Source: Corallococcus macrosporus
GTDB taxonomy: Bacteria > Myxococcota > Myxococcia > Myxococcales > Myxococcaceae
DNA length: 64,000 bases
Assembly (NCBI RefSeq): GCF_017302985.1
Contig: NZ_JAFIMU010000002.1
Coordinates: 620,001 to 684,000 of the forward strand
Reading direction: 5' to 3'
Shown piece after piece: positions 16,902-39,473 of the stretch; position 1 is the stretch's first letter, and every line of letters starts with the position of its first letter. The translations under genes and the position numbers were made by a program. The notes below the pieces were generated by a model. The model was given only the letters and a program-made list of their open reading frames with translations, was not told where the DNA came from and searched no databases.

Positions 16902-17966
16902 TTGCAGCCCGAAGAACTCATCAGGGCCGCCCAGACGCGGGCGGCGGGATTGGACGTGGGGCGGGGGGACGCGGCGCTGGAGCGCGTGCGGGCCCAGGCC
17001 TCGGCCTTGTTCGTGAAACTGCCGGAGCCCCCGGTGTACCGGCGGGCGGAGGACCCGTCGCGCAAGGCGGCCCAGGCCCTGCTGCCAGAGATGGAGCGGG
17101 TGCTGGCGGAGGCCTTCGCGGTGGCCCGGGAGCCGGCAGTGTCTCCGCTGGTGGACCGGCTGGTGGCGGCCCTGCGCGCGCACGCGGAGGCGCTGGTGCA
17201 CACCGCGGACGGCCGGCTGGAGGCGGCGGAGCTGGCGTGGCGCCGGGCCCAGGAGCTGGAGCGGGCCGCGCACCCCACCCGGCAGATGGTGGGGCAGCCG
17301 TCGCGGCCGCCGCCGGTGTTCGACAAGGAGAGCGGCCAGTCCCGCTACGACCCGCGCAACGCGCCCCAGGCGACGGTGAAGCTCATCTGCCCCAACACGG
17401 GCTGCAAGCGCCTGGGGGACTACGCCTTCGTCCCGACGCACGCCTACCACCGCTTCGTGTGCCCGGCGTGCCGGGTGCCCTTCCTGGCCTACTTCGGGGA
17501 GCTGAAGGCGCTGGAGGTGGAGCACCGGCGCAGCTCCAAGCGCTACCTCTTCACGGTGGACGAGGTGGGCAGCGCCGTCACCACGCGCATCGACTTCGAG
17601 GAGGCGTCCGGGCAGGACTTCCCCGCGGCGCGGCGCGACCTGCTGGCCTTCCTCTACACGGAGCAGCGCGAGCTGAAGGCCGTGGTGAACATCACCAATG
17701 GGAAGCTGATGTGGGTGAGCCCCGCGTCGTCGTGCTTCGTGGTGACGGCGGCCTTTGGCGAGGGCGCGCCGGAGCTGGTGGCCTTCCGGGCGTTCCGGGA
17801 CGACGTGCTCAGGAAGAGCCGGCTCGGCCAGGGGTTCATCGACGGGTACTATCATTTTGGCCCTCCGCTGGCGGCGTGGGTGGTGCGCCGGCCGCGGGTG
17901 AAGGCCGGGGTGCGCTGGGCCCTGACGCGGGTGCACGGCCGCCTGACACGGAGGGAGCGCGGATGA
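16902..17966 (+). CDS. Zinc-ribbon protein with C-terminal CFI-box-like domain
   Basis: The 354-residue protein begins at a TTG. An Ala-rich helical region (to about 150) precedes a zinc ribbon with CPNTGCKRLG and CPACRVPF (about 163-192). The C-terminus (about 270-350) has the layout of the CFI-box: SSCFVVTAAFGEG, then AFRAFRDDVLRKSRLGQ, FIDGYYHFGPP and a helix. CFIATAAYG-type tails are common in large secreted or regulatory myxobacterial proteins, but their function is unknown. Its stop overlaps the start of the TlpA-like gene. Confidence 0.7.
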   Translation: MQPEELIRAAQTRAAGLDVGRGDAALERVRAQASALFVKLPEPPVYRRAEDPSRKAAQALLPEMERVLAEAFAVAREPAVSPLVDRLVAALRAHAEALVHTADGRLEAAELAWRRAQELERAAHPTRQMVGQPSRPPPVFDKESGQSRYDPRNAPQATVKLICPNTGCKRLGDYAFVPTHAYHRFVCPACRVPFLAYFGELKALEVEHRRSSKRYLFTVDEVGSAVTTRIDFEEASGQDFPAARRDLLAFLYTEQRELKAVVNITNGKLMWVSPASSCFVVTAAFGEGAPELVAFRAFRDDVLRKSRLGQGFIDGYYHFGPPLAAWVVRRPRVKAGVRWALTRVHGRLTRRERG

Positions 17967-18541
17967 CACTGCAGGCTGGAACCGAGGGGACGAAGCCGCC
18001 GGGCGCGCGCGGGGACCGCGCGAAGACGGCGCTGTCCGTGGTGGCGGTGCTGGGGCTGGCCGCGCTGGCCTTCCTGGGCGTGCGCGAGGCGCAGCGGGCG
18101 CGGCTGGTGCCGGACGGGGCGTCGCCGCCGTCCTTCCAGATGACGAAGCACGCGGGCGGCTCGCTGGCGCTGTCGGACCTGAAGGGTCAGGTGGTGATGC
18201 TCGACTTCTGGGCCACCTGGTGTCCGCCGTGCCGCGAGGAGATGCCCTCCCTGGTGAAGCTGGCCAAGGAGTACGAGTCCCAGGGGCTCGTCTTCGTGGC
18301 GGCCAGCCGGGACGACGGCCCCACGGCGCCGCAGGAGGTGGACTACTTCCTCCAGCGGTTCCAGCCGGAGCTGCGGCCCTACGTCGTGTACGCGGACGAC
18401 GACGTGGCGCGGGCCTTCCAGGTGAACGCGCTGCCCACGCTCTACTTCCTGGACCGGGACGGCAAGGTGATGGACGCCCAGCGCGGCATGCTGTCCGAGG
18501 ACGGCCTCCGCCGCCGCATCGAGCGCGCCCTCAAGCGGTAG
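17963..18541 (+). CDS. TlpA/ResA-like thiol-disulfide oxidoreductase
   Basis: The 192-residue protein has an N-terminal membrane anchor (about residues 22-42) and a periplasmic thioredoxin fold. The redox motif is FWATWCPPCREEMP. The cis-proline block is NALPTLYFLDRDG. Such proteins reduce disulfides in envelope proteins, often in cytochrome c assembly. The ATG overlaps the upstream stop (ATGA), so translation is coupled. The next gene begins 10 bases after it. Confidence 0.92.
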   Translation: MTLQAGTEGTKPPGARGDRAKTALSVVAVLGLAALAFLGVREAQRARLVPDGASPPSFQMTKHAGGSLALSDLKGQVVMLDFWATWCPPCREEMPSLVKLAKEYESQGLVFVAASRDDGPTAPQEVDYFLQRFQPELRPYVVYADDDVARAFQVNALPTLYFLDRDGKVMDAQRGMLSEDGLRRRIERALKR

Positions 18542-18551
18542 AGTGGGGGGC

Positions 18552-20393
18552 ATGACCCTCTACGACGCGGCCACCGTCGACGCTTGCACCTGGCCGCAGA
18601 CGCCGGAAGCGCGGCTGGCGCGCGACTACTTCGTCCCGCTGATGAAGCGTGGCAGCACCACCTTCCTCAGCGACCGCACCACCCTGCAACTGGTGGCGAT
18701 GGACGACCTGCGCATCCCGCTGGCCATCAACGAGGCGGAGTACGGCAACTCGCCGCTGCACTCGACGTGGGTGCGCTACATCGGCCTGCCGGTGGCGGCG
18801 GTGACGGCGGAGACGTACGGCGCGGCGCGCGCGGTGGTGATGCGCGGGGCCATGCGCACGCTGGGCGCGATGCTGAAGGCGGCGCGCATCGACAAGTGCG
18901 TCTACGTGGACCACTGGGGGCTGCTGCGCAACCTCCACGCGCGGCTCGATGAGGCGCAGGTGGAGCGCCTCACCGCCTTCCTGGTGGAGCAGTTCCCGGG
19001 GCACGCCATCCTGTTCCCCGCCATCAACCCCGCGAGCGCGTCGCCCCTGCTCAACACGCTGGCCGCGAAGGACTACGGCTTCGTGTACGCGTCGCACACG
19101 CGCATGACGCTGCCCACGCAGGAGGTCAGCCGGCAGGTGCGGGAGAACCGGCGCCGCGATGGGCGGCTCCTGGAGGCCGCGGGCTATCGCATCGTGGACG
19201 GGCGGGAGATGCCCGACTGCGCGCCCCGGCTGCGGGAGCTGTACCGGTCGCTCAACGCGGACAAGTACCACTCCTCGCTGGACTACACGGAGGAGCTCTT
19301 CGCGTGGACGCTGCGCGAAGGCCTCTTCCAGTACCGGCTCGCGGTGAAGGACGGGCGCGTGGATGGCTTCTACGCCACGCACACCAGCCAGGACGTCGTC
19401 TGGTCCCCCATGTTCGGCTACGACCTGGCGCTGCCGCAGGAACTGGGCCTGTACCGGGGGCTCGTGCACCGGCTCATGCAGGACGCGCTGGAGGTGGGGC
19501 TCACCATCGAGCTGGGCCCGGGCGCGGATCCGTTCAAGAGCCTGCGCGGCTCCCAGCCGGTGCCCCGGTGGACGGCCTTCCACGTGAAGCACCTGTCGGG
19601 CTTCCGCCAGTACGCGTGGCGCACGCTGCAGCGCTACGTCAACGGCGGGGTGCGGCCGGCCGCGAACGCGATGCTGAAGAAGATCGACGGGGATGCCGCC
19701 GTCGGCTTCGGTCCCCTCACGCTGCCCTTCACGCCGCCCACGGGCCAGACGCCCATGGACTCGGCCCGGGCGCTGCGCGAGCAGGTGGACGCGCTGGAGG
19801 CGGCGCTGGAGTCCGCGGCGCGGCTGGAGGGCGAGGCCCGGCTGCGCGAGCTGTCGCCGCTGTCGCAGAAGCTGCACAACTGGGCGCAGCCCATGCCCCG
19901 CGTGGTGGCCCTGCGCGAGCGGCTGACGCGGCTGGAGCAGGAGGCGCGCCGCAAGCCCGCGCAGGCCGCGACCCCCGTGAGCGTGTCTCCCGCGGATCAG
20001 GCCCGCCAGCTGCTCCAGGACGCGACGCGCTGGGGTTACACGTCGCTCGTCGCCGCGCACCTGGGCGAGGTCCCGGCCCCGCACCTCAAGGCGCTGGTGG
20101 AGGCGCTGCGGCGCGACCTGGTGGGGATCGTGGGCGTGGTGCTCACCGCCACGCGCGGCGACAAGGTGGTGCTGGCGACGATCGCGAGCGACGCGCTTCG
20201 CAGCGTGGGCATGGACGCGGGCCAGCTCATGGCCCAGGCGGCGCCCTGCGTGGAGGGCAAGGGCGGCGGCTCGCCGGAGGTGGCCTGGGGCGGCGGCTCG
20301 CGCGCGGACGGCGTCGAAGCGGCGCTCAGCGCGACCCGGCACTTCGTCGAGTCGCGGCTGGCCACCTGGACACCGTCCGGCGGCGTCGGCTGA
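18552..20393 (+). CDS. GNAT/FemAB-like acyltransferase fused to an AlaRS-type DHHA1 domain
   Basis: The N-terminal part (about residues 1-375) looks like a GNAT or Fem-type acyltransferase. Its blocks include YGFVYASHTRMTLP, a basic RQVRENRRRDGRLLEAAGY segment and LGLYRGLVHRLMQDALEVGL. A coiled-coil-prone linker follows (about 405-475). The last 110 residues match the C-terminal domain of alanyl-tRNA synthetase: GVVLTATRGDKVVLATIAS, then MDAGQLMAQAAPCVEGKGGG and PEVAWGGGSRADGVEAAL. No synthetase catalytic or editing domain is present. GTG at 18543 is an alternative start; ATG at 18552 follows a G-rich SD-like run. It is the third gene after the CFI-box and TlpA-like genes and ends three bases from trxA. 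Confidence 0.75.
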   Translation: MTLYDAATVDACTWPQTPEARLARDYFVPLMKRGSTTFLSDRTTLQLVAMDDLRIPLAINEAEYGNSPLHSTWVRYIGLPVAAVTAETYGAARAVVMRGAMRTLGAMLKAARIDKCVYVDHWGLLRNLHARLDEAQVERLTAFLVEQFPGHAILFPAINPASASPLLNTLAAKDYGFVYASHTRMTLPTQEVSRQVRENRRRDGRLLEAAGYRIVDGREMPDCAPRLRELYRSLNADKYHSSLDYTEELFAWTLREGLFQYRLAVKDGRVDGFYATHTSQDVVWSPMFGYDLALPQELGLYRGLVHRLMQDALEVGLTIELGPGADPFKSLRGSQPVPRWTAFHVKHLSGFRQYAWRTLQRYVNGGVRPAANAMLKKIDGDAAVGFGPLTLPFTPPTGQTPMDSARALREQVDALEAALESAARLEGEARLRELSPLSQKLHNWAQPMPRVVALRERLTRLEQEARRKPAQAATPVSVSPADQARQLLQDATRWGYTSLVAAHLGEVPAPHLKALVEALRRDLVGIVGVVLTATRGDKVVLATIASDALRSVGMDAGQLMAQAAPCVEGKGGGSPEVAWGGGSRADGVEAALSATRHFVESRLATWTPSGGVG

Positions 20394-20396
20394 GCG

Positions 20397-20723
20397 TCAG
20401 AGGACCTGGCGCACGGCCTCCTCCAGCTTCGCCTTCGGCACGGCGCCCACGACCTGCTTCACCACCTTCCCGCCCTTGAAGAACAGCAGGGTGGGCATGG
20501 CCCGGATGCCGTACTGCTCGGGCGTCTTCGGGTGGTCGTCCACGTTGAGCTTCACCATCTTCATCCGGCCCTGGTACTCGGCGGCCAGCGAGTCGATGAC
20601 CGGCGCGATGACCCGGCACGGCGGGCACCAGGTGGCGGTGAAGTCCACCAGCACCGGCTCCTGTGACTCCAGCACCTCGCGTTGGAACTCCGCGTCGCCC
20701 AGCTCGATGACGTTGCCAGCCAT
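20397..20723 (-). CDS. trxA: Thioredoxin with a WCPPC active site
   Basis: The 108-residue protein has the full thioredoxin fold. It contains VLVDFTATWCPPCRVIAPV, the strand MVKLNVDDHPKTPEQYGI and the cis-Pro loop RAMPTLLFFKGGK. The redox motif is CPPC instead of the usual CGPC, which should shift the redox potential towards a more oxidising value. It has no signal peptide, so it is cytoplasmic. It is convergent with the acyltransferase-DHHA1 gene. Confidence 0.95.
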   Translation of the reverse strand: MAGNVIELGDAEFQREVLESQEPVLVDFTATWCPPCRVIAPVIDSLAAEYQGRMKMVKLNVDDHPKTPEQYGIRAMPTLLFFKGGKVVKQVVGAVPKAKLEEAVRQVL

Positions 20724-23119: not shown

Positions 23120-26100
23120 CTACAGCGCCCGCAGGTGGTGGAGCAGTCGCTCCGCCACGGTGGAGGCGTTGGGGGCGCTCAGCATCGTGTAGTGGTCGCC
23201 CGGCACCTCGTACCGGGTGACGGGCCCCGTGAGCCACGTGCTCCAGTCCGGTTCCCCGGAAGCGGTTGGCGCCGTGGCGGCCCGGAAGAGCAGCGTGGGC
23301 CCCGAGTAGCCACCACCGGGCACGTAGCCGCGCTGCGCGTCGTAGAGCCTCGAGTGCAGGTCGAACAGGCGCGCCGCGCCGTCCAGGTCCAGGCCCAGGC
23401 CCAGGTCCTTCGCGGGCGAGCTCCGGAGCTGCTCCAGGACGTAGGCGAGTTGCCCGCGTCCTTCCAGGCGTCGCAGCCGGTCCAGGTCCAGGGACAGCTC
23501 CTGCCAGGGCAGCCCGAGCGTCCGGGCGAAGAGGGCCAGCATGCCGAGCGGGTCGGCCGCGGGACGGGGCTGGGGCGTGGGCACGGTGGAGTCCATCAGG
23601 GCCAGCAGCTCCACCTGTTCTCCGGTGTGCTGGAGCTGACGCGCCATCTCCAGGGCGACGAGCCCACCGAAGGACCAGCCTCCCAGCAGGTACGGCCCAT
23701 GTGGCTGCACGGCGCGGACCTGGGACAGGTAGTCGCGTGCCATCGCTTCGATGGAAGCGGGAGGCAGCGCGCCGCCGTCCAGCCCCGATGCGGACAGACC
23801 GTAGACGGGCCGGTCGTGACCGAGCTGTCGGATCAGCTCCGTGTAGCCGAGCACGCTGCCGCCACCGCCATGGACGAGGAAGAGGGGACGCGCGCTGGAG
23901 GTGCCCGCGTCCAATCGCACGAGGTTGGGGGGAAGCGCGGTGGCTTCCTGCCGCATCCGGTGCGCCAGCTGCTCCACGGTGGAGTGCTGGAAGAGGGCGG
24001 CCATGGGGAGCACCTGGCCCGTGTGTTCGCGGATGGCCGCGACGAGGCGCAGGGCGAGCAGTGAGTGGCCACCGAGGTCGAAGAAGCTGTCGGTGACGCT
24101 GACGCGAGGCACGCGCAGCACCTCCGCGAAGGACCGTGCCAGCTGTTCCTCCAGCGACGTGCGGGGCGCGACGTAGGCGCCGTCCGAGGCCGGGGAGTAG
24201 GGCGCGGGGAGGGCCTTGCGGTCGACCTTGCCGTTGGCCGTGAGGGGCAGGGCGTCCAGGCGGCTCACGGTGGAAGGCACCATGTAGTCGGGCAGCCGCT
24301 GCTTGAGGAATGCGCGCAGCTCGGCGACGTCGAGGGACGCGGGAGCGACGACGTAGGCGGTAAGTCGCTTGTCGCCGGGCACGTCCTCACGGGCCATGAC
24401 GATGGCCTCGCGCACGTCGGAGTGGGCCAGGAGCGCGGCTTCGATTTCAGCCAGCTCGATGCGGAAGCCCCGCACCTTCACCTGCGCATCCGCGCGGCCC
24501 AGGAACTCCAGCACGCCGTCCTCGCGCCAGCGGCCGAGGTCGCCAGTTCGATAAAGGCGGGCACCTGGAGTGGAAGAGAAGGGATGGGGGACGAAGCGCT
24601 CCGCGGTGAGTGAGGGCTGGCCCACGTAGCCGCGGGCAAGGCCCTCTCCGCCGACGTAGAGCTCGCCCTGCACGCCCGGAGGGACGGGCTGGCCGGAATC
24701 ATCGAGCACGTACACCTGCGTGTTGCCCAGGGGGCGGCCCAGCGGAACGGCAGTGCCCACCTGGGAGGCCTGAGTGAAGCGATGGCTGGTGGCGAAGACC
24801 GTGGTCTCCGTGGGGCCGTAGCCGCCGGTGACAGGGACGCCCAGTTGCTCCAGCACCTTGCGGACATGGGGAGCGGAGACGACGTCGCCACCGGTGAGCA
24901 CCTGGCGCAGCGAGCGAAGCGCGGGCAGGTGCGAGTCCACCACCTGGGTGAAGAGGCCGGAGGTGAGCCATAGCGTCGTCACACCATGGCGCACCAGCAC
25001 GCGCTCCAACTCATGCGGATCCGTCGGAGGGTGGGGAGGGAAGACGGCCAGCTTCGCGCCATGCAGCAGCGCGCCCCACACTTCGAGGGTGGAGGCGTCG
25101 AAGGCGAGAGGCGCCATGAGCAGCAGCGTCTCGTCAGGGCCGAAGCGGGCGTAGTCGACACCGAAGAGGGTACGGAGCACGGCCGCATGAGGCGTACCGA
25201 CACCCTTCGGCCTGCCGGTGGAGCCGGAGGTGAAGTCGATATACGCGAGGCTCAGGGGTTGAGCGCTGGAAGGAGGCGCATGCATGGGCATGGCACCCAG
25301 TGACACCTCCTCCAGCACCACAGGCAGCGCGCCCTCGTGAGGCAGCTTTGGCAGCAATGCGCGAGACGTGAGGAGGACGCGGGGACGGGTGACCTCCACC
25401 ATCGCGGTCAGCCGCTCATGCGGATACGCCGGGTCCAGGGGCACGTAGGCCGCACCGGCCTTGAGGATGGCGACGAGCGAGACGACCAGCTCCAGCGAGC
25501 GCTCCAGCGCCACCGCCACTCGCGAGTCCGTGCCCACTCCCAGCGAGCGCAGGTGCCACGCGAGCTGATTGGCGCGCTCCTCCAGTTGCCGGTACGTCAG
25601 CCGCGCATCACCGAATTCGACGGCGACCTTCTCAGGGAAGCGGGCCACCACGCGCGCGAAGACCTCTGGCAGCGTGGCGTCGCGCGGGAACTCGGAGGCG
25701 TTCGTGCTCCAGTCCACCAACACCTGCTGGCGCTCCGCTGACGTCAGCAGCGACACGGAATCCAGCGACGCCTCGGGCCGGGCAACGAGCCCTTCCGCCA
25801 ACATGCGGAAGTGCTCCGCCATCCTTGCCGCCGTGCGCGGCTCGAACAGCGCGGTGTTGTAGCCCAGGGTCCCCGTGAAGCCTTCCGGTGACTCCGCCAA
25901 ACTCAACTCCAGGTCGAACTTGGCGGTGGTGTCCTCCACGTCCAGCGGGTGCAGCTTCAGTTCATCCGTGCGCAGTGCGCGCGGGCTGTCGCTGTCCCGC
26001 AGGGTGAAGAGGACCTGGAACAAGGGACTGCGGCTCGAATCGCGAGCGGGCTTCAGCTCCTCCACCAGCCGCTCGAACGGCAGGTCCTGATGGGCATAGG

Positions 26101-29100
26101 CCCCCAGCGCCGTCTCCTTCACCCGGCGCAGCAACTGGCGGAACGAACCCCGCCGGTCCACCCGGGCGCGCAGCACCAGCGTGTTGACGAAGAAGCCGAC
26201 CAGCCCCTCCAGTTCGCCATGCTCACGGCCCGCGATGGGCGAGCCAACGGCGAAGTCCTCCTGGCCGGAGTAGCAGGACAGGAGCACCTGCCACAGGGCG
26301 AGCAGCGCCATGAACGGTGTGGCGGCCTCCTGCTGACAGAGGGCCTTGAGCCTCCGCGAGCTCTCCCCTGACAGGCGCACGGGCACCTGGGCACCCTGAT
26401 ACGTCTGCACGGAGGGACGCGGCTTGTCCGTGGGCAGCTCCAACGCCTGCGGAGCACCCGCGAGCTGCCGCTTCCACCACCCCACCTGCTGCTCCAGCAC
26501 CTCGCCCTTCAGCCAGTCCCGCTGCCACGCCGCGAAGTCCGCGTACTGGAGCGCCAGCGGCGGCAGGGACGACGGCTGTCCTCTCGAGAACGCCGCGTAG
26601 AGCGCTCCCAGTTCCTCGACGAGGACGCGGTTGGACCAGCCGTCCGAGACGATGTGATGCAGCGTGACGAGCAGCACGTGGCGCTGTTCGGACAGGCGCA
26701 GCAGCGAGGAGCGCATCAGGGGCGCACGCGTCAGGTCGAAGGGCCTCAGCGCCTCCTCCAGCGCGAGTCGCCGGACCTCCGCGTCCTGATCCGCAGCCGG
26801 CAGTGAACGCAGGTCCACCCGAGAGACGGTCAGCTCCGCCTGCGCATGCGGGTGCTGGACCGGCTCACCGTCCTCGCGAGCATGGAACGTGGTGCGCAGC
26901 GCTTCGTGACGGTGGACGAGCTCCCGCAGGCCACGAACCAGCGCCTCGGTGTCCAGAGGACCATCGAGCCGCAAGGCAGCAGGGATGTTGTAGTGGACGC
27001 TCCCCGGCTGGAGCCGGTCGAGGAACCACAAGCGCTGCTGCGCGAAGGACAGCGGCAGCGGCCCGGTGCGAGCCACCGCCACCAGCGGCGGACGCGGCAC
27101 CGCTTGCCGGTCAAGCAACGCGGCTTCGACCCGCGCGGCCAGCGACTCCACTGAAGGCGCCTCGAACAACGCGCGCAGCGGCAGCTCCGCGCCCGTCTCC
27201 GTGCGCACGCGCGACACCACCTGCGTCGCGAGCAGCGAGTGTCCACCCAGCGCGAAGAAGTCGTCCCTCACGCCCACCCGGGGCACTCGCAGCACCTGCG
27301 CCCAGATGGCCGCCAGCCTCGCTTCCGTCTCGGTCCTCGGGGCTTCGTACGTGCCGCCGGACGTGGGCGCCTCTGGTTCCGGCAGGGCCTTGCGGTCCAC
27401 CTTGCCGTTGGCGTTCAGCGGCAGCGCGTCGAGCACCACCACCGTCCCCGGCACCATGTACTCCGGCAACCGCTGGCGCAGGTCCGTCTTCAACGCCTTC
27501 GTCTCCACCGACGCGCCTGACTTCGGCGCCACGTACGCGACGAGCCGTCTCTCCTCGCCCTCTCCCTTCGCCACCACCACCGCGTCCTTCACCGCCGCAT
27601 GCTGGCGCAGCGCGGATTCGACTTCGCCCAGCTCGATGCGGAAGCCGCGCACCTTCACCTGGAAGTCCACGCGGCCCAGGTACTCCAGCACGCCGTCCGC
27701 GCGGTAACGGACCCGGTCCCCCGTGCGGTACATCCGGCTGCCCGAGGGTCCGTGCAGTTCCGGCACGAACCGCTCCGCCGTCAGCTCCGGCCTCGACAGG
27801 TAGCCGCGTGCCTGCCCTTCGCCCGCCAGATACAGCTCGCCCGCGACGCCGATGGGCACCGGTTGCAGGTTCGCGTCCAGGACGTACGCCCGCGTGTTCG
27901 TCAGCGGCCGGCCGATGTTCGGCACCTCGTCGCGTCCCACCCGCGAGGCCGTGGAGTACGTCGTGTCCTCCGACGGGCCGTACAGGTTGTACAGCTTGCG
28001 CACCGTGGGGATGGCGTACACCTCCTTCGCCAGCGTCTCCGGCAGGGCTTCGCCCGCCAGGTTCACCACGCGCACGGAGGGCGGCACCGCGCCCATCTTC
28101 ACCAGTTGCGCCATCGCCGACGGCACCGTGTTGATGAGCGTGACCTCCGCCTCCGGTTTCGCTTCGGCCAGGGACAGCGCGTCTCGCACCACCACCACGC
28201 TGCCGCCGCGGACCAGCGGCGCGAACAGCTCGAAGACCGACAGGTCGAAGTTGAGGCTCGTCGCCGCGAGCACCGCCTGCGTCTCCTCCTCCGTGAACGT
28301 CTCGGTGGCCCAGGCGAGGAACGCCACCGCGTTCCGGTGCGTCACCGACACGCCCTTGGGACGGCCCGTGCTCCCGGACGTGTAGATGAGATACGCCACG
28401 TTCTCCGGGTGCACTCGCGCCGGGGGCGCCGTCGCGGGCTCGTGCTCGAGGTCCGCGCCCCGGTCCAGGCACACCGCCTGTGCCGTGAAGGCGGGCAGGG
28501 ACACCAGCAGGTGCGAATGCGCCACCAGGGCCGGGCTGTTCGCGTCCTCCAGCAGCCAGCCCAGGCGATCCTTCGGGTAGCGCGAATCCAGCGGCACGTA
28601 CGCGCCGCCCGCCTTGAGGATGCCCAACGTGCCCACCACCACGTCCACCGTGCGCTCGACGCACAGGCCCACGCGGGACTCCGGTCCCACGCCCAGCTTG
28701 CGCAGCCGGTGGGCCAGTTGGTTCGCCCTCGCGTCCAGTTCCCGGTACGTCAGCCGCTGCGAGCCGCTCACGACCGCGACGGCGTCCGGCATGCGCCGGG
28801 CCTGGGCTTCGAAGAGGGACGGAATCGTCGCGTCGCGCGGGTACTCCGCCTGCGTCTGGTTCCACGTCACCAGCAGTTGGTGACGTTCGTCGGCCGTGAG
28901 CATGGGCAGCCGGCCCACGGCTTCGTCCGGCTTCGCCACCGCGGCCTCCAGCAGCGTGCGCAGGTGCTCCACCATCCGGGCGGCGGTGGAGGCTTCGAAC
29001 AGGTCCGTGCGGTAGCTCAGCGCGCCCTGCAGGCCCTGGGGCGTCCGAGCCAGGGAGAGGGTGAGGTCGAACTGCGTCGTCTGCTCGGCCTGCTCGAGAG

Positions 29101-32100
29101 GCAGCAGCCGCAGCGGCGCGGATCCGACGGACTGCGACAGCGCCGGAGCATTCTGGATCGCGAGCAGCACCTGGAACAGGGGCGAGTGGCTCAGGCTGCG
29201 TCGAGGTTGCAGCTCCTCCACCAGCTTCTCGAAGGGAGCCTCCTGGTGCTCATAGGCGGCGAGCGTGGTGGCGCGCACCTGGCCCAGCAGCGCGCGGAAG
29301 GAAGCCTTCGCATCGACGTGCGTGCGCAGGACCAGCGTGTTGACGAAGAAGCCGATGAGCCCCTCCGTGTCCTCGCGAGTGCGGCCCGCGATGGGCGAGC
29401 CCAGCGGGATGTCCTCCTGGCCGGAGTAGCGCGAGAGCAGCACCTGCCATGCCGACACCAGGCCCATGAAGAGCGTGGCGCCCTCGCGCTGGCATAGCGC
29501 CTGGAGGGCCTCCGTCAGCGCTCCCGACAGGTGCACGGGCACCTGCGCGCCACGCTGGGACTGGATGCGCGGGCGCGGCTTGTCGGTGGGAAGCTCCAGC
29601 AGCGGAGGCACACCGGCGAGCTGACGGCGCCAGTAGGCCAGGTGGTGCTCCAGCACCTCGTCCTTCAACCACGCGCGCTGCCACGCCGCGTAGTCGACGT
29701 ACTGGACGGGAAGGGGTGGCAGCGGCGACGGCTGGCCCGAGACATGGGCGCCGTAGAGCGCGGACAGCTCCCGCACGAGCACGCCCATGGACCAACCGTC
29801 GGAGACGATGTGGTGCATGTTCAGCCACAGCACGTGCGTCCGGGCGTCCAGGCGCAGCAGTGCCGCGCGCAGCAGGGGCCCGCGCTCCAGGTCGAACGGG
29901 CGCAGGGCTTCCTCTTGCAGCCGCTGCTTCACGACCTCGTCGGGGACCGCGCCCAGGTCCACCGTCTCCAGTGCGAAGGGCAGCGTGGGGAGGATGACCT
30001 GGACGGGCTCACCGTCCCGCGAGACGAAGACGGTGCGCAGGGATTCGTGGCGGGCGATGAGTGAGGCGAAGGACCGCTCCAGCGCGCCCACGTCCAGCGC
30101 GCCTTCCACGCGCAGGGCCAGGAAGAGGTTGTAGGCGGCGCTGCCCGGCTCCAGTTGATCCACGAGCCACAGCCGCTGCTGCGAGAAGGACAGGGGCAGC
30201 GGCCCCGTGCGAGCCACGGGGACAAGAGGCGGCGGGGGCGGCAGTGCCACCACGCCACGGCCGCGCAGCGCGCGGAGGACCTCGCGGGCCCGCCGGTGCG
30301 CCTCCGCCCAGGTGAGCCGGGTGCCCCCATGTCCGAAGGCAATCAGGTCCGGATGCAGCCGGGCCTGCGCCTCGATGAGCCCGTGCAGGGACGCGTCCTC
30401 CGCGGTCGTGGCGCCGGGCTCGCTCCAGGTGCGCGACAGCAGTTCGCGCTCCTCGAGCGTGAGCATGGGCAGCGCGGAGAGGCGGTGCTCCGGCGCGTGG
30501 ACCGCACTGGCCAGCAGCGTGCGCAGGTGGCTCACCATGCGGCTCGCGGTCGCCGGGTCGAAGAGGTCGGTGTTGTATTCGAGCAGGCCCTTCAATCCGG
30601 TGGCGGTGTCGTTGAGGGCCAGGGTGAGGTCGAACTTCGCCGTGCCGCCCCGGGGCTCCAGCGGGTGGAGGCGCAGGCCCGTGGTCAGCGTCTCCGGCAT
30701 GGGCGCGTTCTGGTACGCGAGCATCACCTGGAAGAGCGGCGTGCGGCCGGCGACGCGCTCCGGGCGCACGGCCTCCACCAGCTTCTCGAAGGGCACGTCC
30801 TGGTGCGCATACGCGCCCAGGGCCACGTCGCGCACGCGGGACAGCAGCTCCCGGAAGGTCGGGTCGCCGTCCAGCTTCGTGCGCAGCACCAGCGTGTTGA
30901 CGAAGAAGCCGATGAGCCCTTCGAGTTCCGCGTGGTGGCGCCCCGCGATGGGCGAGCCGACGGTGATGTCCTCCTGGCCGCTGTAGCGCGAGAGCAGCAC
31001 CTGGAACGTGGCCAGCACCACCATGGAGGGCGTGACGCCTTCGCTCCGGCAGAGCGCCTGCATCGCGTCCGACAGCTCGCGCGGGAACAGGAAGGGCACC
31101 ACCGCGCCCCGGAACGTCTGCACCGCGGGCCGAGGCCGATCCGTGGGCAGCTCCAGCGCCTTCGGTGCACCCTGGAGCTGCGCGCGCCACCAGCCGAGCT
31201 GGGCCTCCAGTGCCTCGTCGCGCAGCCAGCCTCGCTGCCAGACGGAGAAGTCCGCGTACTGCACGGGCAGCGGCTTCAGTTGCGCGGTCCGGCCCTCGAC
31301 GTGCGCGGCATACAGCGTGGTCAGCTCCTGGAGGAGCACGCCCATGGACCAGGCGTCGGAGATGACGTGGTGCATGGTCAGCAGCAGCAGGTGGTGACGC
31401 GCGCTCATGCGCACCAGGAGGACGCGCCAGAGTGGGCCGGCTTCCAGGTCGAAGACCTGACGGGCCTCGTCATCAAGCACGGAGCCGAGGACGTGCTCGG
31501 CATCGGGTAGGGCGCTCAGGTCCATCCAGCTCGCGGGCAGCGAGGCGGCCGGGGCGATGACCTGCACGGCGCCGGACGCGTGCTCACGGAAGGTGGTGCG
31601 CAGGGACTCATGCCGCTGGAGCAGGTCCCGCAGTGCGCGTGCGAGCGCGGGAACGTCGAGGGCTCCTTCGAGCCGCATGACGAACGGCAGGTTGTACGCG
31701 GTGCTCTCCGGCTCCAGCTTGGAGAAGAACCACAGCCGCTGCTGGGCGAAGGACAGGGGCAGGTCGCCGTCGCGAGGCACCGGCTTGAGCGCGGGCACGG
31801 ACAGGGCAGGGCGCACCGGGCCCTGGGACTCCAGGCGGCGCGCGATGGCTTCCACGGTGGGAGCCGCGAAGAAGTCCGCGATGGACAGCTCCGCCTGGAA
31901 CGTGCGCCGGATGCGCGAGAGAACCTGCGTGGCGCTCAGGGAGCTGCCGCCCAGCTCGAAGAAATGATCCTCGGCGCCGACGGTGCCGGACTGGAGGACC
32001 TCTTCCCAGAGCGTGGCGATCCGCTTCTCCGTGTCCGTGCGAGGCGGGCGCGTCCGGGCACGGGTCTGGAACGTGGAGGGATGGGGCAGGGCCTTGCGGT

Positions 32101-35100
32101 CGACCTTTCCGTTGGACGTGAGGGGCAGGGCGTCCAGGCGTCCCAGGACGGAAGGCACCATGTAGTCAGGCAGCCGCTGCTTGAGGAACGCGCGCAGTTC
32201 GGCGACGTCGAGGGACGCGGGAGCGACGACGTAGGCGACGAGGCGCTTGTCGCCGGGCACGTCCTCACGGGCCACGACGACGGCTTCACGCACGTCGGAG
32301 TGGGCCAGGAGCGCGGCTTCGATTTCAGCCAGCTCGATGCGGAAGCCCCGCACCTTCACCTGCGCATCCGCGCGGCCCAGGAACTCCAGCACGCCGTCAT
32401 CCCGCCAGCGGCCCAGGTCGCCGGTGCGGTAGAGGCGAGCGCCTGGAGTGGAAGAGAAGGGGTTGGGGACGAAGCGCTCCGCGGTGAGTGAGGGCTGGCC
32501 CACGTAACCGCGAGCAAGGCCCTCTCCGCCGACGTAGAGCTCGCCCTGCACGCCCGGAGGGACGGGCTGGCCGGAATCATCGAGCACGTACACCTGCGTA
32601 TTGCCCAGGGGGCGGCCCAGCGGAACGGCAGTGCCCACCTGGGAGGCCTGAGTGAAGCGGTGGCTGGTAGCGAAGACAGTGGTCTCCGTCGGTCCATAGC
32701 CGCCAGTGACAGGGACGCCCAACTGGTCCAGCACCTTGCGGACATGAGGCGCGGAGACGACGTCACCACCGGTGAGCACCTGGCGCAGCGAGCGAAGCGC
32801 GAGCAGGTGTGAGTCCACCACCTGGGTGAAGAGGCCGGAGGTGAGCCACAGCGTCGTCACACCATGGCGCACCAGCACGCGCTCCAACTCGTGCGGATCC
32901 GTCGGAGGGTGGGGAGGGAAGACGGCCAGCTTCGCGCCATGCAGCAGCGCGCCCCACACTTCGAGGGTGGAGGCGTCGAAGGCGAGAGGCGCCATGAGCA
33001 GCAGCGTCTCGTCAGGGCCAAAGCGGGCGTAGTCGACACCGAAGAGGGTACGGAGCACGGCCCTGTGAGGCGTCCCAACACCCTTGGGCCTGCCAGTGGA
33101 GCCGGAGGTGAAGTCGATATACGCAAGGCTCAGGGGTAGAGCGCTGGAAGGAGGCGCATGCACAGGCAGCGCATCGAGCGCCACCTCCTCCAGCACCACG
33201 GGCAGCATTCCCTCATCCAGGACGCGGCTTTTTTCCGTAGGCGCCAGCGCCGCCACGGTCAGCGTCTTCTCATCCGGGACACGGTCGTGAGCTGTGGACC
33301 CCAATACCACCGGCTGCATCCCGTCACGTGGGGCACGGTCCTGAGCCGTGGTCACCAGCGCCATGGGTAGCGTCTTCTCACCGGCGACGTGGGCTTGAGC
33401 TGCGGCTGTGCGCGGAAGCGCGGATTCAAGCCCGTGAGGCAGCTTCGGCAAGAGCGCACGTGAGGTGAGGAGGACGTGGGGACGAGCGTCCTCCACCATC
33501 GCCGTCAGACGCGCCTGCGGATACGCCGGATCCAGCGGCACATAGGCCGCACCGGCCTTGAGGATGGCGACGAGCGAGACGACCAGCTCCAGGGAGCGCT
33601 CCAGTGCCACCGCTACCCGCGAGTCCGTGTCCACGCCCAGCGAGCGCAGGTGCCACGCGAGCTGATTGGCTCGCTCCTCCAACTGCCGGTACGTGAGCCG
33701 CGCATCCCCGAACTCGACGGCGACCTTCTCCGGGAAGCGCGCCACCACGCGCGCGAAGACCTCTGGCAGCGTGGCGCCGCGCGGGTACTCAGACTCCGTC
33801 GCATTCCATTCCACCAGCACCCGCTGGCGCAGCTCGGCCGTGAAGGGCGCCACAGGGTCCCGTGGCTGCTCCTTCCACTCACGCGCGACGTCCTCCAGCG
33901 GAACCGTGGGCACGGCCCGCGTGCGGGACTCCTGCGACTTGCGCGGCGCCGGGACCGGTTGCCCCTTTCCCGCGAGTGCCTCGTCAATCAGGCGGGCCAC
34001 CGCCTCCAGCGAGGGAGACTCGAACAGGCGCCGGAGCGGCAGCTCCACCGAGAAGGTCTGGCGAATCCGGCTGAGCGCCTGCGTGGCCAGCAGCGAATGG
34101 CCGCCCAGGTCGAAGAAGTGATCGTTCGCCCCGACGCGCGTGACGCCGAGCAGCTCCTGCCACAACCCCGCCAGACGCTGCTCGGTGGGCGTGCGTGGCG
34201 CGACGTACTCCCGAGGATCACTCCCCGCCAGGTCCGGAGCGGGCAATGCCTTGCGGTCCACCTTGCCATTCGTCGTGAGCGGAAGCGCGGGCAGCACCAC
34301 CACGGCCGAAGGCACCATGTACTCAGGCAGCGCGTCCTTGAGCGCCGCCCTCAGCTCGGAACCCTGAGCGGTGACACCGTCGCGGAGCACGACGTAGCCC
34401 ACCAGCCGCTTGCCAGCGGGCCCGTCCTCGCGCGCCAGCACCACCGCGTCCCGCACGGGAGACAGCTTCGCCAGCGCGGCCTCCACCTCGCCCAGTTCGA
34501 TGCGGAAGCCACGCACCTTCACCTGCGCGTCCGCGCGGCCCACGAACTCCAGCGTGCCGTCCTCGCGCCAGCGCACCACGTCGCCCGTGCGGTACAGCCG
34601 TGCACCTGCTTCGCCAGAGAACGCATCCGGCACGAAGCGCTCGGCCGTCAGCGCGGGCCTGCCCGCGTAGCCGCGAGCCACGCCCACGCCGCCCAGGTGC
34701 AGCTCGCCCTTCACGCCCACGGGCACGAGCCCGCCCCGGGCATCCAGCACATACACACGCACGTTGGCCAGCGGCCGGCCGATGGAGGGCACGCGTCCGT
34801 CCGCCGTGCACTCGGTGAGCGTGGCCATGACCGTCGCTTCCGTGGGGCCGTACGTGTTCACGAACGTGCGGCCCGGAGCCCAGCGCGCCACCACCTCCGG
34901 GGGCAGCGCTTCACCTCCCGAGATGACGGTGCGCAGCGCGGGCAGTCCTTCCGGCGCCGTGGCCGCGAGCGTCGCGGGCGTGAGGCTGATGACGGTGAGG
35001 GCCTCATCGCGCAGCAGCTTGCGCAGCGGCTCGCCGGGCATCAGGTCTTCCAGCGGTGCCAGCACCAGCGTCGCGCCGCTGCACAGCGTGGTGAAGATCT

Positions 35101-37183: not shown

Positions 37184-37365
37184 GTTTTTGAGAATAACCC
37201 GTCAGCAACGGGGGCTGGGTGAAACCCGGCCTCGGCGTTATTCCCGGTTATTTCGACGCGGCGCACCCGGCAGGATGCGCCATGAAACAAGGTGACGAGG
37301 TCTCGAAACGGGGCATTTTGCCCCGGCCCTCCAGCCACCCTGCACAAAAACAAAGGCAGTGATTT
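37184..37365 (-). promoter_or_regulatory. Upstream region of the NRPS gene with repeated GTTATT boxes
   Basis: Between the ompA-type gene and the NRPS start lie two direct GTTATT boxes 10 bases apart (37237-37242 and 37247-37252) and one inverted copy at 37193-37198. An inverted repeat CGGGGC/GCCCCG (37309-37325) is also present. These could bind a regulator, but I cannot name a promoter with confidence. Confidence 0.35.
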
Positions 37366-37392
37366 GGGACGGCCCGTGCACCGGGCCGTCCC
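37366..37392 (-). terminator. Terminator of the OmpA/TSP3 gene
   Basis: A perfect 11-bp stem (GGGACGGCCCG at 37366-37376 with 37382-37392) has a 5-base loop. It lies just after the stop at 37404 on the minus strand. It is followed, in that direction, by AAATC and then a T-rich tract. It separates ompA transcription from the NRPS. Confidence 0.8.
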
Positions 37393-37403
37393 AACGGACC
37401 GCG

Positions 37404-39275
37404 TTACTTCTTGCCGGCCGGCTTGCCCGTGTCCGGCGGCGGCGCACCCGGTCCGGGCACGGGCTCGGTGCCGGGCGGCGGCGGCTGGCCATTGGGCACG
37501 ATGGTCTCCTTCGGGCCGGTTTCGATCTCCGACTTCACCAGCTTGAAGTCCACGCGCCGGTTCTTCGCGCGGCCCAGGGCCGTGTCGTTGGTGGCGATGG
37601 GCCGGTCGAAGCCGAAGCCCTGCGACGTGAGGCGCTTGCGGTCGATGCCCTTCTTCACCAGGTAGTCGAGCACCGACTTCGCGCGGCGGTTGGACAGGTC
37701 CACGTTGAGCTGGCGCGAGCCCTTGTTGTCCGTGTGCCCTTCAATCTGCACCGGCCCCAGCGTGGGGTTCTTCGCCAGCACCGTCGCCACCTCGTCCAGC
37801 AGCGGGTACGACTGCTTCTGGATGACCGCGGATCCGGTCTCGAACAGGATGTTGCCCTTGATGCGGATGCGGTCCGACTCCACGACCACGTAGGGCGGAG
37901 CGTCGTACGGGCAGCCGTTGTTCTCCGGCGGGCCGGCCACGTCGGGGCAGTCGTCCTCGCCGTCGGGAATCTCGTCGAAGTCCGTGTCCGGGCAGCCGTC
38001 GAAGTCCTTCGGGCCGGGCACCGTGGGGCACTTGTCCAGCCGGTCGACGATGCCGTCGCCGTCGGTGTCCTTGTCCGGCTCCGGCGGGCAGCCCTTGGTC
38101 TCCTGCGGGCCGGCCTTGCTGGGGCACGCGTCGTCGCCGTCGGCGATGCCGTCGCCGTCGTTGTCCGGATCCGGGCAGCCGTCCTCGTCGCCGAAGTCGT
38201 CCTTGTCCTCGGGCTGCGTCGGGCAGCGGTCGCGCACGTCGGGCACGCCGTCGCCGTCCGAGTCCGGGCCCTCGTCCTTGAAGGTCTTGTCGTAGCGCAC
38301 GGCGAGCATGACCCGCAGGGCCTCGCGGCCGTAGCCGGTGGTGGCGTTGAGGCCGCGGCCCACGTCCAGCTCCACGCCCCAGTCGCCCCACACCTTCGCG
38401 CGAGCGCCCACCAGCAGCTCCCACGGCGTCTTGAGCGAGGCCGCCTGGTCGAAGTTGAAGGGGCGTGCCAGCGGCGTGCGCAGGTGCATTTCCGCGGTGG
38501 CCTTCACCTCGCGCAGCCGGCTGATGTCCGGCAGGTCCACGATGCCGCCCGCGCCCAGCGTCAGTTCGTCGTCCACGCGCAGGTTGAGGTACTGCGCCGC
38601 GGGGCGCAGCAGCACGCCCGCGTTGCCCAGCACGCGCACGGGCCCCAGCTTCTTCTCGATGGCCAGACGCGGGGCGAACACCACGCCGCGCTCACCCGTG
38701 AAGCTCTGCGCGCTGCCGGTGGGCAGCCGCACCTCCGTCACCACCGCGAGCCCCAGCGGGAAGCGGTCCGGGTTCAGCAGGCTCACGCGCGGCAGCAGGC
38801 GGATGTCGCCCATCGTGGTGCCGCTTACGCCCGCGGCGCCGGGGAAGTCCGGCGAGTTCAGCGCCTCGCCCAGCAGCGAGAAGTTGTCGCCCTGGATGAG
38901 GGTGACGGGCAGGTCCACGCCCAGCTCCAACCGCTCCAGCAACTGGTAGGAGAACAGCAGGTGCGCGTCCAGCCGGTAGGGAATCAGGTCCCCCAGCTTC
39001 TCGTCGCCCAGCTTCAGGGCGAGGATGCGCCAGTTGAAGTCCAGCAGCAGCGCGCCCCGGTAGCTGCCCACCGGTTCCACGGTGGCGCCTTCCAATCCGA
39101 TGCCGCTGGACTGCGCGGCCGTCGGTTTCACCGGGACGGCGTCGAAGCCTCGGGAGAAGGGGTCGGGCTGAGCGTGGGCCGCTGCCGTGGTGAGCAGCAG
39201 GCCCAGGACCGCGAGTCGCAGGGCCGCGCTGCACGCGGACCGGCTCCACGAAGGTACGGAGTCGGGGCATTGCAT
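37404..39275 (-). CDS. OmpA-family outer-membrane protein with thrombospondin type-3 repeats
   Basis: From the ATG at 39275 the protein is 623 residues. A signal peptide (LAVLGLLLTTAAAHAQ) is followed by a beta-rich N-terminal half of about 300 residues, probably a barrel. Then come about five calcium-binding TSP3 repeats of the type DSDGDGVPDVRDRCP, and an OmpA peptidoglycan-binding domain. The last has ILFETGSAVI, IEGHTDNKGS and LSNRRAKSVLDYL. A Pro/Gly-rich tail ends the protein. It should tether the outer membrane to peptidoglycan. A GTG at 39296 is a less likely start. Confidence 0.93.
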   Translation of the reverse strand: MQCPDSVPSWSRSACSAALRLAVLGLLLTTAAAHAQPDPFSRGFDAVPVKPTAAQSSGIGLEGATVEPVGSYRGALLLDFNWRILALKLGDEKLGDLIPYRLDAHLLFSYQLLERLELGVDLPVTLIQGDNFSLLGEALNSPDFPGAAGVSGTTMGDIRLLPRVSLLNPDRFPLGLAVVTEVRLPTGSAQSFTGERGVVFAPRLAIEKKLGPVRVLGNAGVLLRPAAQYLNLRVDDELTLGAGGIVDLPDISRLREVKATAEMHLRTPLARPFNFDQAASLKTPWELLVGARAKVWGDWGVELDVGRGLNATTGYGREALRVMLAVRYDKTFKDEGPDSDGDGVPDVRDRCPTQPEDKDDFGDEDGCPDPDNDGDGIADGDDACPSKAGPQETKGCPPEPDKDTDGDGIVDRLDKCPTVPGPKDFDGCPDTDFDEIPDGEDDCPDVAGPPENNGCPYDAPPYVVVESDRIRIKGNILFETGSAVIQKQSYPLLDEVATVLAKNPTLGPVQIEGHTDNKGSRQLNVDLSNRRAKSVLDYLVKKGIDRKRLTSQGFGFDRPIATNDTALGRAKNRRVDFKLVKSEIETGPKETIVPNGQPPPPGTEPVPGPGAPPPDTGKPAGKK

Positions 39276-39473
39276 ACCGAGGCTCTTACCACCCACCCAC
39301 TCTCGCCGGAAGAAAACCCACCCCCCGGCGTGCGAGCTACAGCCTCATGCCATTTCTACAAATCCCGGGCGTGAGCGGATCCGCGCCACACCCTGTCGGT
39401 TGGGACACACTTCCTGGAGGACCACCGGTTTCCGAGCGCGCGTGACGCCGCACGAGCAGCGAGAAGAAGGGCC

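Follow-up and report, generated by a model that had tools for sequence, protein, structure and literature searches.

A double-GNAT acyltransferase joined to the C-Ala domain of alanyl-tRNA synthetase in Corallococcus, and its association with nonribosomal peptide synthetases lacking a condensation domain

A gene of Corallococcus macrosporus appears to join an acyltransferase to the C-terminal domain (C-Ala) of alanyl-tRNA synthetase (AlaRS), and the question is which reaction such a protein would carry out and for which pathway. The gene lies at 18552–20393 (+) of the 64,000-nucleotide stretch analysed here (contig NZ_JAFIMU010000002.1, positions 620,001 to 684,000; hereafter the window), where its frame is uninterrupted over 613 codons and encodes a single protein of 613 aa. 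An assembly artefact or chance was rejected, as full-length matches were present in 17 of 195 Myxococcota genomes, in four genera of one family and with no internal stop, and as a profile of the C half matches AlaRS C-Ala. An antisense ORF at 18531–20342 was taken as a high-GC shadow.

Pfam analysis of the window protein identified Acetyltransf_6 (PF13480) at residues 195–330, with a score of 29.8 bits (cut-off 22), and DHHA1 (PF02272) at residues 516–600, with a score of 23.6 bits, slightly below the cut-off of 25.9. The NCBIfam model alaS matched residues 430–582 (E 1.2e-6) with 27 bits, far below its whole-protein cut-off. When two copies from another genus were scanned, one of each of the types A and B defined below, the A copy gave DHHA1 at 44.1 bits, the B copy gave neither DHHA1 nor Acetyltransf_6 by Pfam, and Acetyltransf_6 was absent from both at E up to 0.001. 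The DHHA1 assignment is independent of the sub-cut-off scores; it rests on sequence similarity, namely the 44.1-bit copy and the C-half profile.

That profile, built from 14 C-halves, matched the human AlaRS C-Ala (5t5s, E 7.7e-10) over profile positions 5–203 of 206, covering the helices and the globule, and the Aquifex AlaRS C-Ala (3g98, E 9.4e-10). The whole-protein AlphaFold model had a mean pLDDT of 67 and a pTM of 0.50. Comparison of the C part of the model with C-Ala entries gave Z scores of 12.6–15.8, with some longer entries at an rmsd of 7–10; against 3g98, Z was 13.7, with an rmsd of 2.2 over 111 residues. By sequence profile and modelled fold, the C half is an AlaRS C-Ala. It comprises the helices of the helical subdomain (19752–19949 (+), residues 401–466; model, fold comparison and C-half profile) and the globular DHHA1 subdomain (19983–20363 (+), residues 478–604; Pfam, fold comparison and C-half profile). 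Because the helices preceding the globule also belong to C-Ala, the AlaRS-like part covers ~200 residues and starts near residue 401, not ~500. The family proposed in the original prediction thus stands on the two profile matches, and the extent of 110 residues given there does not.

The N-terminal half (18552–19679 (+), residues 1–376) was delimited by the PF13480 match, AF2 models and fold comparison. Modelled alone, it reached a pLDDT of 71.7 and a pTM of 0.72, and 17 of its 20 best solved entries were MprF, FemX or Sba18/Sbb17, these being several entries each of few proteins. The remaining three were VipF (Z 14.4, rmsd 9.4; and Z 13.5) and MAB_4324 (Z 13.6). The half alone gave Z 14.9 against 7duw (rmsd 4.1 over 257), Z 14.5 against 4ii9 (rmsd 6.1 over 282) and Z 14.2–14.6 against Sba18/Sbb17. 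Within the whole-protein model, the N part gave Z 14.9 against FemX (4ii9; 273 aligned, rmsd 5.3) and Z 14.7–14.8 against the aminoacyl-tRNA-dependent peptide synthases Sbb17/Sba18 (rmsd 3.9–4.0). The model therefore has a double-GNAT fold in the FemX/MprF arrangement, with CoA-using double GNATs tying within 1 Z, and the GNAT/Fem-type assignment of this half was borne out. As Z differences under 1 are ties, a tRNA-dependent enzyme is favoured by these comparisons but not decided by them. In profile–profile comparison, the N half matched PF13480 proteins (an alignment of 12 loci) with a probability of 95% (E 2.2e-8), and the C-terminal domain of myxobacterial MprF (an alignment of 13 of 15 fetched loci) with a probability of 1.3%. 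No credible PDB sequence match was found for the N half, and FemAB (PF02388) gave no match at E up to 1e-5 among 20 relatives.

The survey of 195 genomes scored no more than six candidates per genome, so that distant or stand-alone relatives may escape it; its other listed matches covered the C-Ala region, as in AlaRS, or were a GNAT-only paralogue. Within Corallococcus, 11 of 16 genomes carried the full-length fusion (these 16 being among 39 surveyed), and a scan of genome contigs with close-relative patterns gave seven Corallococcus loci. The copies were of three types, A, B and a window type. A and B were both present in 13 genomes, in one of them (G002) on two contigs, and one B copy (G004; L025:7848-9287) ended after the coil and before C-Ala. 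In the trees, the B copies formed one group, and the window-type copies formed one group within A, a topology that fits a single fusion, followed by duplication into A and B and, in Corallococcus, by the later gain of another copy. No match to the fusion was found in phages or in viral contigs; 14 plasmid records matched, none covering 80% of the query, and the five listed ones matched the N half only.

Stand-alone relatives of the N half were also noted. A paralogue without C-Ala (L032:7665-8795) lies close to DUF3419 and Asp/Arg-hydroxylase genes. A relative on a Paenibacillus plasmid (L154:9989-11143, 32%) shares its gene row with an annotated ATP-grasp gene, and another is on a Deinococcus plasmid (L155:7986-9104, 27%), where the preceding gene has chance-level Pfam matches only, one of them ATP-grasp.

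Motifs, charge, constraint and trees were compared in 23 fusion rows, a selection without same-genome duplicates, the A copy L064 and several B copies (L025, which is without C-Ala, L026, L029, L030, L031 and L062). The pyrophosphate loop of GNAT proteins has the pattern Q/RxxGxG/A; here this place reads QELGLY, the final position being the invariant Tyr301. FK329 was conserved in 23 of 23 rows and also in the stand-alone paralogue. Lys329 (codon 19536–19538 (+), in FK329SLRG) is a candidate counterpart of Lys305 of FemXWv and Lys329 of DhpH-C, a kind of lysine described as catalytic in both enzymes (PMC12945691).

In AlaRS, C-Ala binds the elbow of the tRNA and is not known to read the alanine identity pair, so that alanine is no more than a candidate for the donated amino acid. 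All 16 window-type and A rows retained the GKGGG loop of the fused domain (20256–20270 (+), residues 569–573, including Lys570), and none of the seven B rows did; among the copies left out, the A copy L064 keeps the loop, and the B copy L026 is without it. The organism's own AlaRS reads GGKGGGK here, and the second lysine, following GKGGG, is missing in the fusion, where AQAGG of the same AlaRS reads AWGGG. In Caenorhabditis elegans C-Ala, the lysine K934 lies within GGKGGGK; a docking model places it in contact with G18 of the D-loop, and its change to alanine weakened binding 11-fold (PMC10485164). C-Ala is the main tRNA-binding module in Escherichia coli, and its helices dimerise prokaryotic AlaRS (PMC10036535). 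Since B keeps C-Ala without the loop, the domain also does something besides tRNA binding, perhaps pairing.

The fused C-Ala carried 10–16 lysines and arginines, with a net charge of −3 to +1 (16 window-type and A rows), against 16–21 and a net charge of +1 to +3 in 17 of 18 AlaRSs over roughly the same stretch. Binding of tRNA by the fused domain is putative, and the lowered basic charge is a reason for caution. Simple pairwise counts of dN/dS were made for four of the five A copies of the genus in the row set and all four from other genera. The values for C-Ala and the enzyme half were 0.27–0.47 and 0.31–0.52 in the genus, and 0.21–0.39 and 0.33–0.47 in the other genera. In the window-type copies (n = 7), constraint was weaker on C-Ala than on the enzyme half (mean dN 0.070 vs. 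0.042; dS 0.160 vs. 0.149). The C-Ala of the compared A copies is therefore at least as constrained as the enzyme half, and the reverse holds in the window-type copies.

The tandem A and B genes stand ahead of a nonribosomal peptide synthetase (NRPS). The gap between A and B was −4 to 75 bases in 12 loci, and a long ORF directly followed B in 13 of 13 loci with B; the start motif of this ORF was found in 12 of these 13, with candidate starts −59 to 134 bases from the B stop. All five complete cassette NRPSs examined had the order C-A-T-A-T-C-TE, with no condensation domain in module 2, and this order fits the Pfam matches on pieces of two copies. Among the matches listed, a query spanning the cassette T-A junction matched end-to-end in exactly the 13 genomes with A and B, out of 96 family genomes. 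Each end-to-end match lay inside the cassette, and the other listed matches started at the A domain. From its code positions, the first A domain looks to us to be of the serine type, and we take the code of the second to be alanine-like. The latter code was not found in print, and no specificity is therefore claimed for the second A domain. Two known synthetases were set aside as the cassette NRPS, namely that of corallorazine (Crz1, C1-A1-T1-C2-A2-nMT; PMC11342130) and that of coralinone (CorA, A-T-C-A-T-KS-AT-ACP-TE; PMC10979478). A 450-aa gene was observed near nine of the 12 tandem loci examined (L066:4686-6041, L063:4882-6231, L065, L024-L028 and L030). Its product bears a weak resemblance to circularly permuted ATP-grasp type 2 (22.4 bits vs. 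a cut-off of 32) and may be a further ligase of the pathway.

The window itself holds an NRPS of 4687 aa (23120–37183 (−)), with the order C-A-T-A-T-C-C-A-T-C-A-T-TE, which is 2.7 kb from the window fusion, on the opposite strand and with other genes between. Its domains number four C, four A, four T and one TE; our home-made domain models gave one extra A match at the tandem C-C site. Module 2 is without a C domain (A2-T2, 31826–33745 (−), NRPS residues 1147–1786), and an apparent insertion of ~80 residues interrupts the second A domain. In ten other NRPS regions of the genome (17–20 kb each), the home-made models, which missed a few T domains, gave 48 T→C junctions and one T→A junction. The single T→A case is the NRPS whose thioesterase ranks next in similarity to the window NRPS thioesterase within this genome. 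A second NRPS of the same genome (L144, G000:C4:1042000-1061999) was seen to have one C-less A-T module followed by C-C. Beside the window NRPS, a 671-aa ORF (37359–39374 (+)) had no Pfam match up to E 10.

Domain models and co-occurrence make this NRPS the proposed partner of the window copy. Within the genus, orthologues of the window NRPS were present in 11 of 11 fusion-bearing and none of five fusion-free genomes, with thioesterases 71–100% identical; in the five, the near-whole-query thioesterase matches were at most 45% identical among those listed, with shorter pieces up to 54%. A query across the T-A junction of the window NRPS likewise gave matches (E up to 1e-60) in 11 of 11 against none of five. 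The first 250 residues of this query matched end-to-end in eight genomes and as two separate pieces in G010; in G004 and G007, the match covered the A part only. The co-occurrence is claimed within the genus only, since fusion-free genomes elsewhere match the thioesterase query up to 67% over its whole length, and no p-value is given, as the genomes are related. Two genomes (G005 and G009) keep the LysR, thioredoxin and FBP genes and are missing the fusion and the NRPS that flank these genes on opposite sides; exchange of the entire block in one event could account for this pattern.

The closest neighbours of the fusion were also considered. The CFI-box and TlpA-like genes (16902–18541 (+)) precede it, with the TlpA stop 10 bases upstream, and a thioredoxin gene (20397–20723 (−)) is convergent with it and forms the other edge of the empty site. 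The CFI-box and TlpA genes stood side by side in all nine genus genomes examined that are without the fusion at this site. In G005 and G009, TlpA is directly followed by thioredoxin, and the other seven have a different gene after TlpA. The two upstream genes are pre-existing neighbours and no specific partners, and the fusion is a guest between TlpA and thioredoxin, so that these neighbours are uninformative on its function. The link to the envelope that had been drawn from CFI-box and TlpA is not supported, as both persist in the nine genomes; the small-molecule target, named as an alternative, gains support from the NRPS linkage.

As its relatives travel with NRPSs missing one condensation domain, the fusion likely supplies the missing bond. 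With a confidence only a little better than even, we read the protein as an aminoacyl-tRNA-dependent aminoacyltransferase of the Fem/MprF/PacB type, which has its own AlaRS-derived grip on the tRNA elbow and serves C-less NRPS modules. In this mechanism, the GKGGG loop would anchor the outer corner of the charged tRNA to the C-Ala globule, adding tRNA affinity. From the 3' end of this tRNA, the double-GNAT half would transfer the amino acid to an amino group, with Lys329 near the reaction. The acceptor would most likely be the aminoacyl group on the carrier protein of a C-less NRPS module. Within the tandem cassette, tRNA binding would fall to A, and B, having lost the loop, would act either as its partner subunit or as another transferase; for the window copy, the 4687-aa NRPS close by would be the synthetase served. 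The domain make-up, the modelled folds, the conserved motifs, the order of the genes with the C-less NRPS and the co-occurrence are what the analysis shows; the donor tRNA, the acceptor, the amino acid and the pairing of A with B are the parts of this reading that we infer, and the aminoacyl-tRNA donor of the original prediction was judged plausible. A more specific form is possible but doubtful. Here the absent internal C domain would be replaced in trans by a two-part transferase, in which A grips the elbow of the charged tRNA and B, without the grip, completes the enzyme or docks it on the NRPS, so that the ribosomal amino-acid supply would feed the middle of an assembly line.

This reading has precedents. 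PacB adds alanine to an NRPS-made chain, and DhpH and Orf11 are further precedents (PMC12945691). PacB, DhpH-C, VlmA, Orf11 and Sba18-Sbb17 are GNAT-fold, aminoacyl-tRNA-dependent enzymes of natural-product biosynthesis, which have the double-GNAT fold in common with the modelled N half and act in antibiotic pathways, PacB with an NRPS; the F-K pair of DhpH-C with its conserved lysine (Phe328-Lys329) is the candidate counterpart of FK329 (PMC12945691). The parts of that source drawn on here mention no AlaRS C-Ala on these enzymes, whereas the fusion has one, with a putative role in tRNA use. In livipeptin biosynthesis, a tRNA-using transferase replaces the missing condensation domain beside a C-less NRPS, as proposed here, but that transferase is of the L/F-transferase family and the NRPS is a single module, A-PCP-R (PMC10548850). 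By analogy with PacB and livipeptin, bond supply from charged tRNA would be the simplest reading.

Against this reading stand the near-equal scores of CoA-using double GNATs, the failure of the MprF profile, the absence of a credible PDB sequence match for the N half, the low charge and lost second lysine of the fused C-Ala, its laxer constraint in window-type copies, its retention without the loop in B and the non-adjacency of the window copy and its NRPS. Several of these points would suit an ordinary acyl-CoA-dependent N-acyltransferase of the NRPS pathway, in which C-Ala is merely a dimerisation or scaffold piece pairing A with B. Such an enzyme would explain why B retains the domain though GKGGG is lost; CoA-using double GNATs within 1 Z of the best match, the low positive charge and the weaker constraint on the window-type domain are in its favour, and dimerisation of prokaryotic AlaRS through the C-Ala helices gives it a model (PMC10036535). 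We nevertheless consider it unlikely, as GKGGG is present in every A row compared and the A-type C-Ala is constrained, as QELGLY with the invariant Tyr301 departs from the pyrophosphate-loop pattern, and as a C-less module requires a peptide bond, which CoA acylation would not provide.

Two further readings are improbable. An envelope enzyme that works with CFI-box and TlpA to aminoacylate a lipid or a peptidoglycan precursor would suit the Fem and MprF folds among the closest models and the TlpA stop only 10 bases away; the persistence of CFI-box and TlpA in the nine genomes without the fusion at this site, and the position of the A and B copies elsewhere, ahead of an NRPS, speak against it. 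Self-protection or tailoring, in which an amino acid is added to the finished NRPS product, or charged tRNA is sensed, with no chain building, has a similarly small probability. It shares the same NRPS linkage, and co-occurrence cannot separate chain building from tailoring, but the C-less module common to both proposed partner NRPSs is better explained by a bond made in trans.

The fused C-Ala resembles that of AlaRS in its helical and globular subdomains and its GKGGG loop, and differs in sitting on an acyltransferase, in being less basic, in the loss of the second loop lysine and in the change from AQAGG to AWGGG. The MprF–LysRS fusions are of the LysX-like type. In these and in the fungal AspRS–MprF, a GNAT-fold tRNA-dependent transferase is likewise joined to synthetase material (PMC2922099), but the fused part there is a tRNA-charging synthetase, whereas the window fusion has the elbow-binding tail only. 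No description of an acyltransferase with a C-Ala was found in the result listings of open-literature searches, where the one paper returned by one search names DHHA1 in a reference only; each half and each principle is already known, and it is their combination that those searches did not return.

If the proposed reading is correct, the fusion would represent a new use, as far as the searches reach, of the elbow-binding tail of AlaRS, outside a synthetase and feeding a transferase. Genome searches for assembly lines in which condensation domains are missing would also gain a marker. As one residue of the product would come from tRNA, prediction from adenylation domains only would misread such NRPSs. 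Which amino acid enters, and where, would be directly testable in this culturable soil genus.
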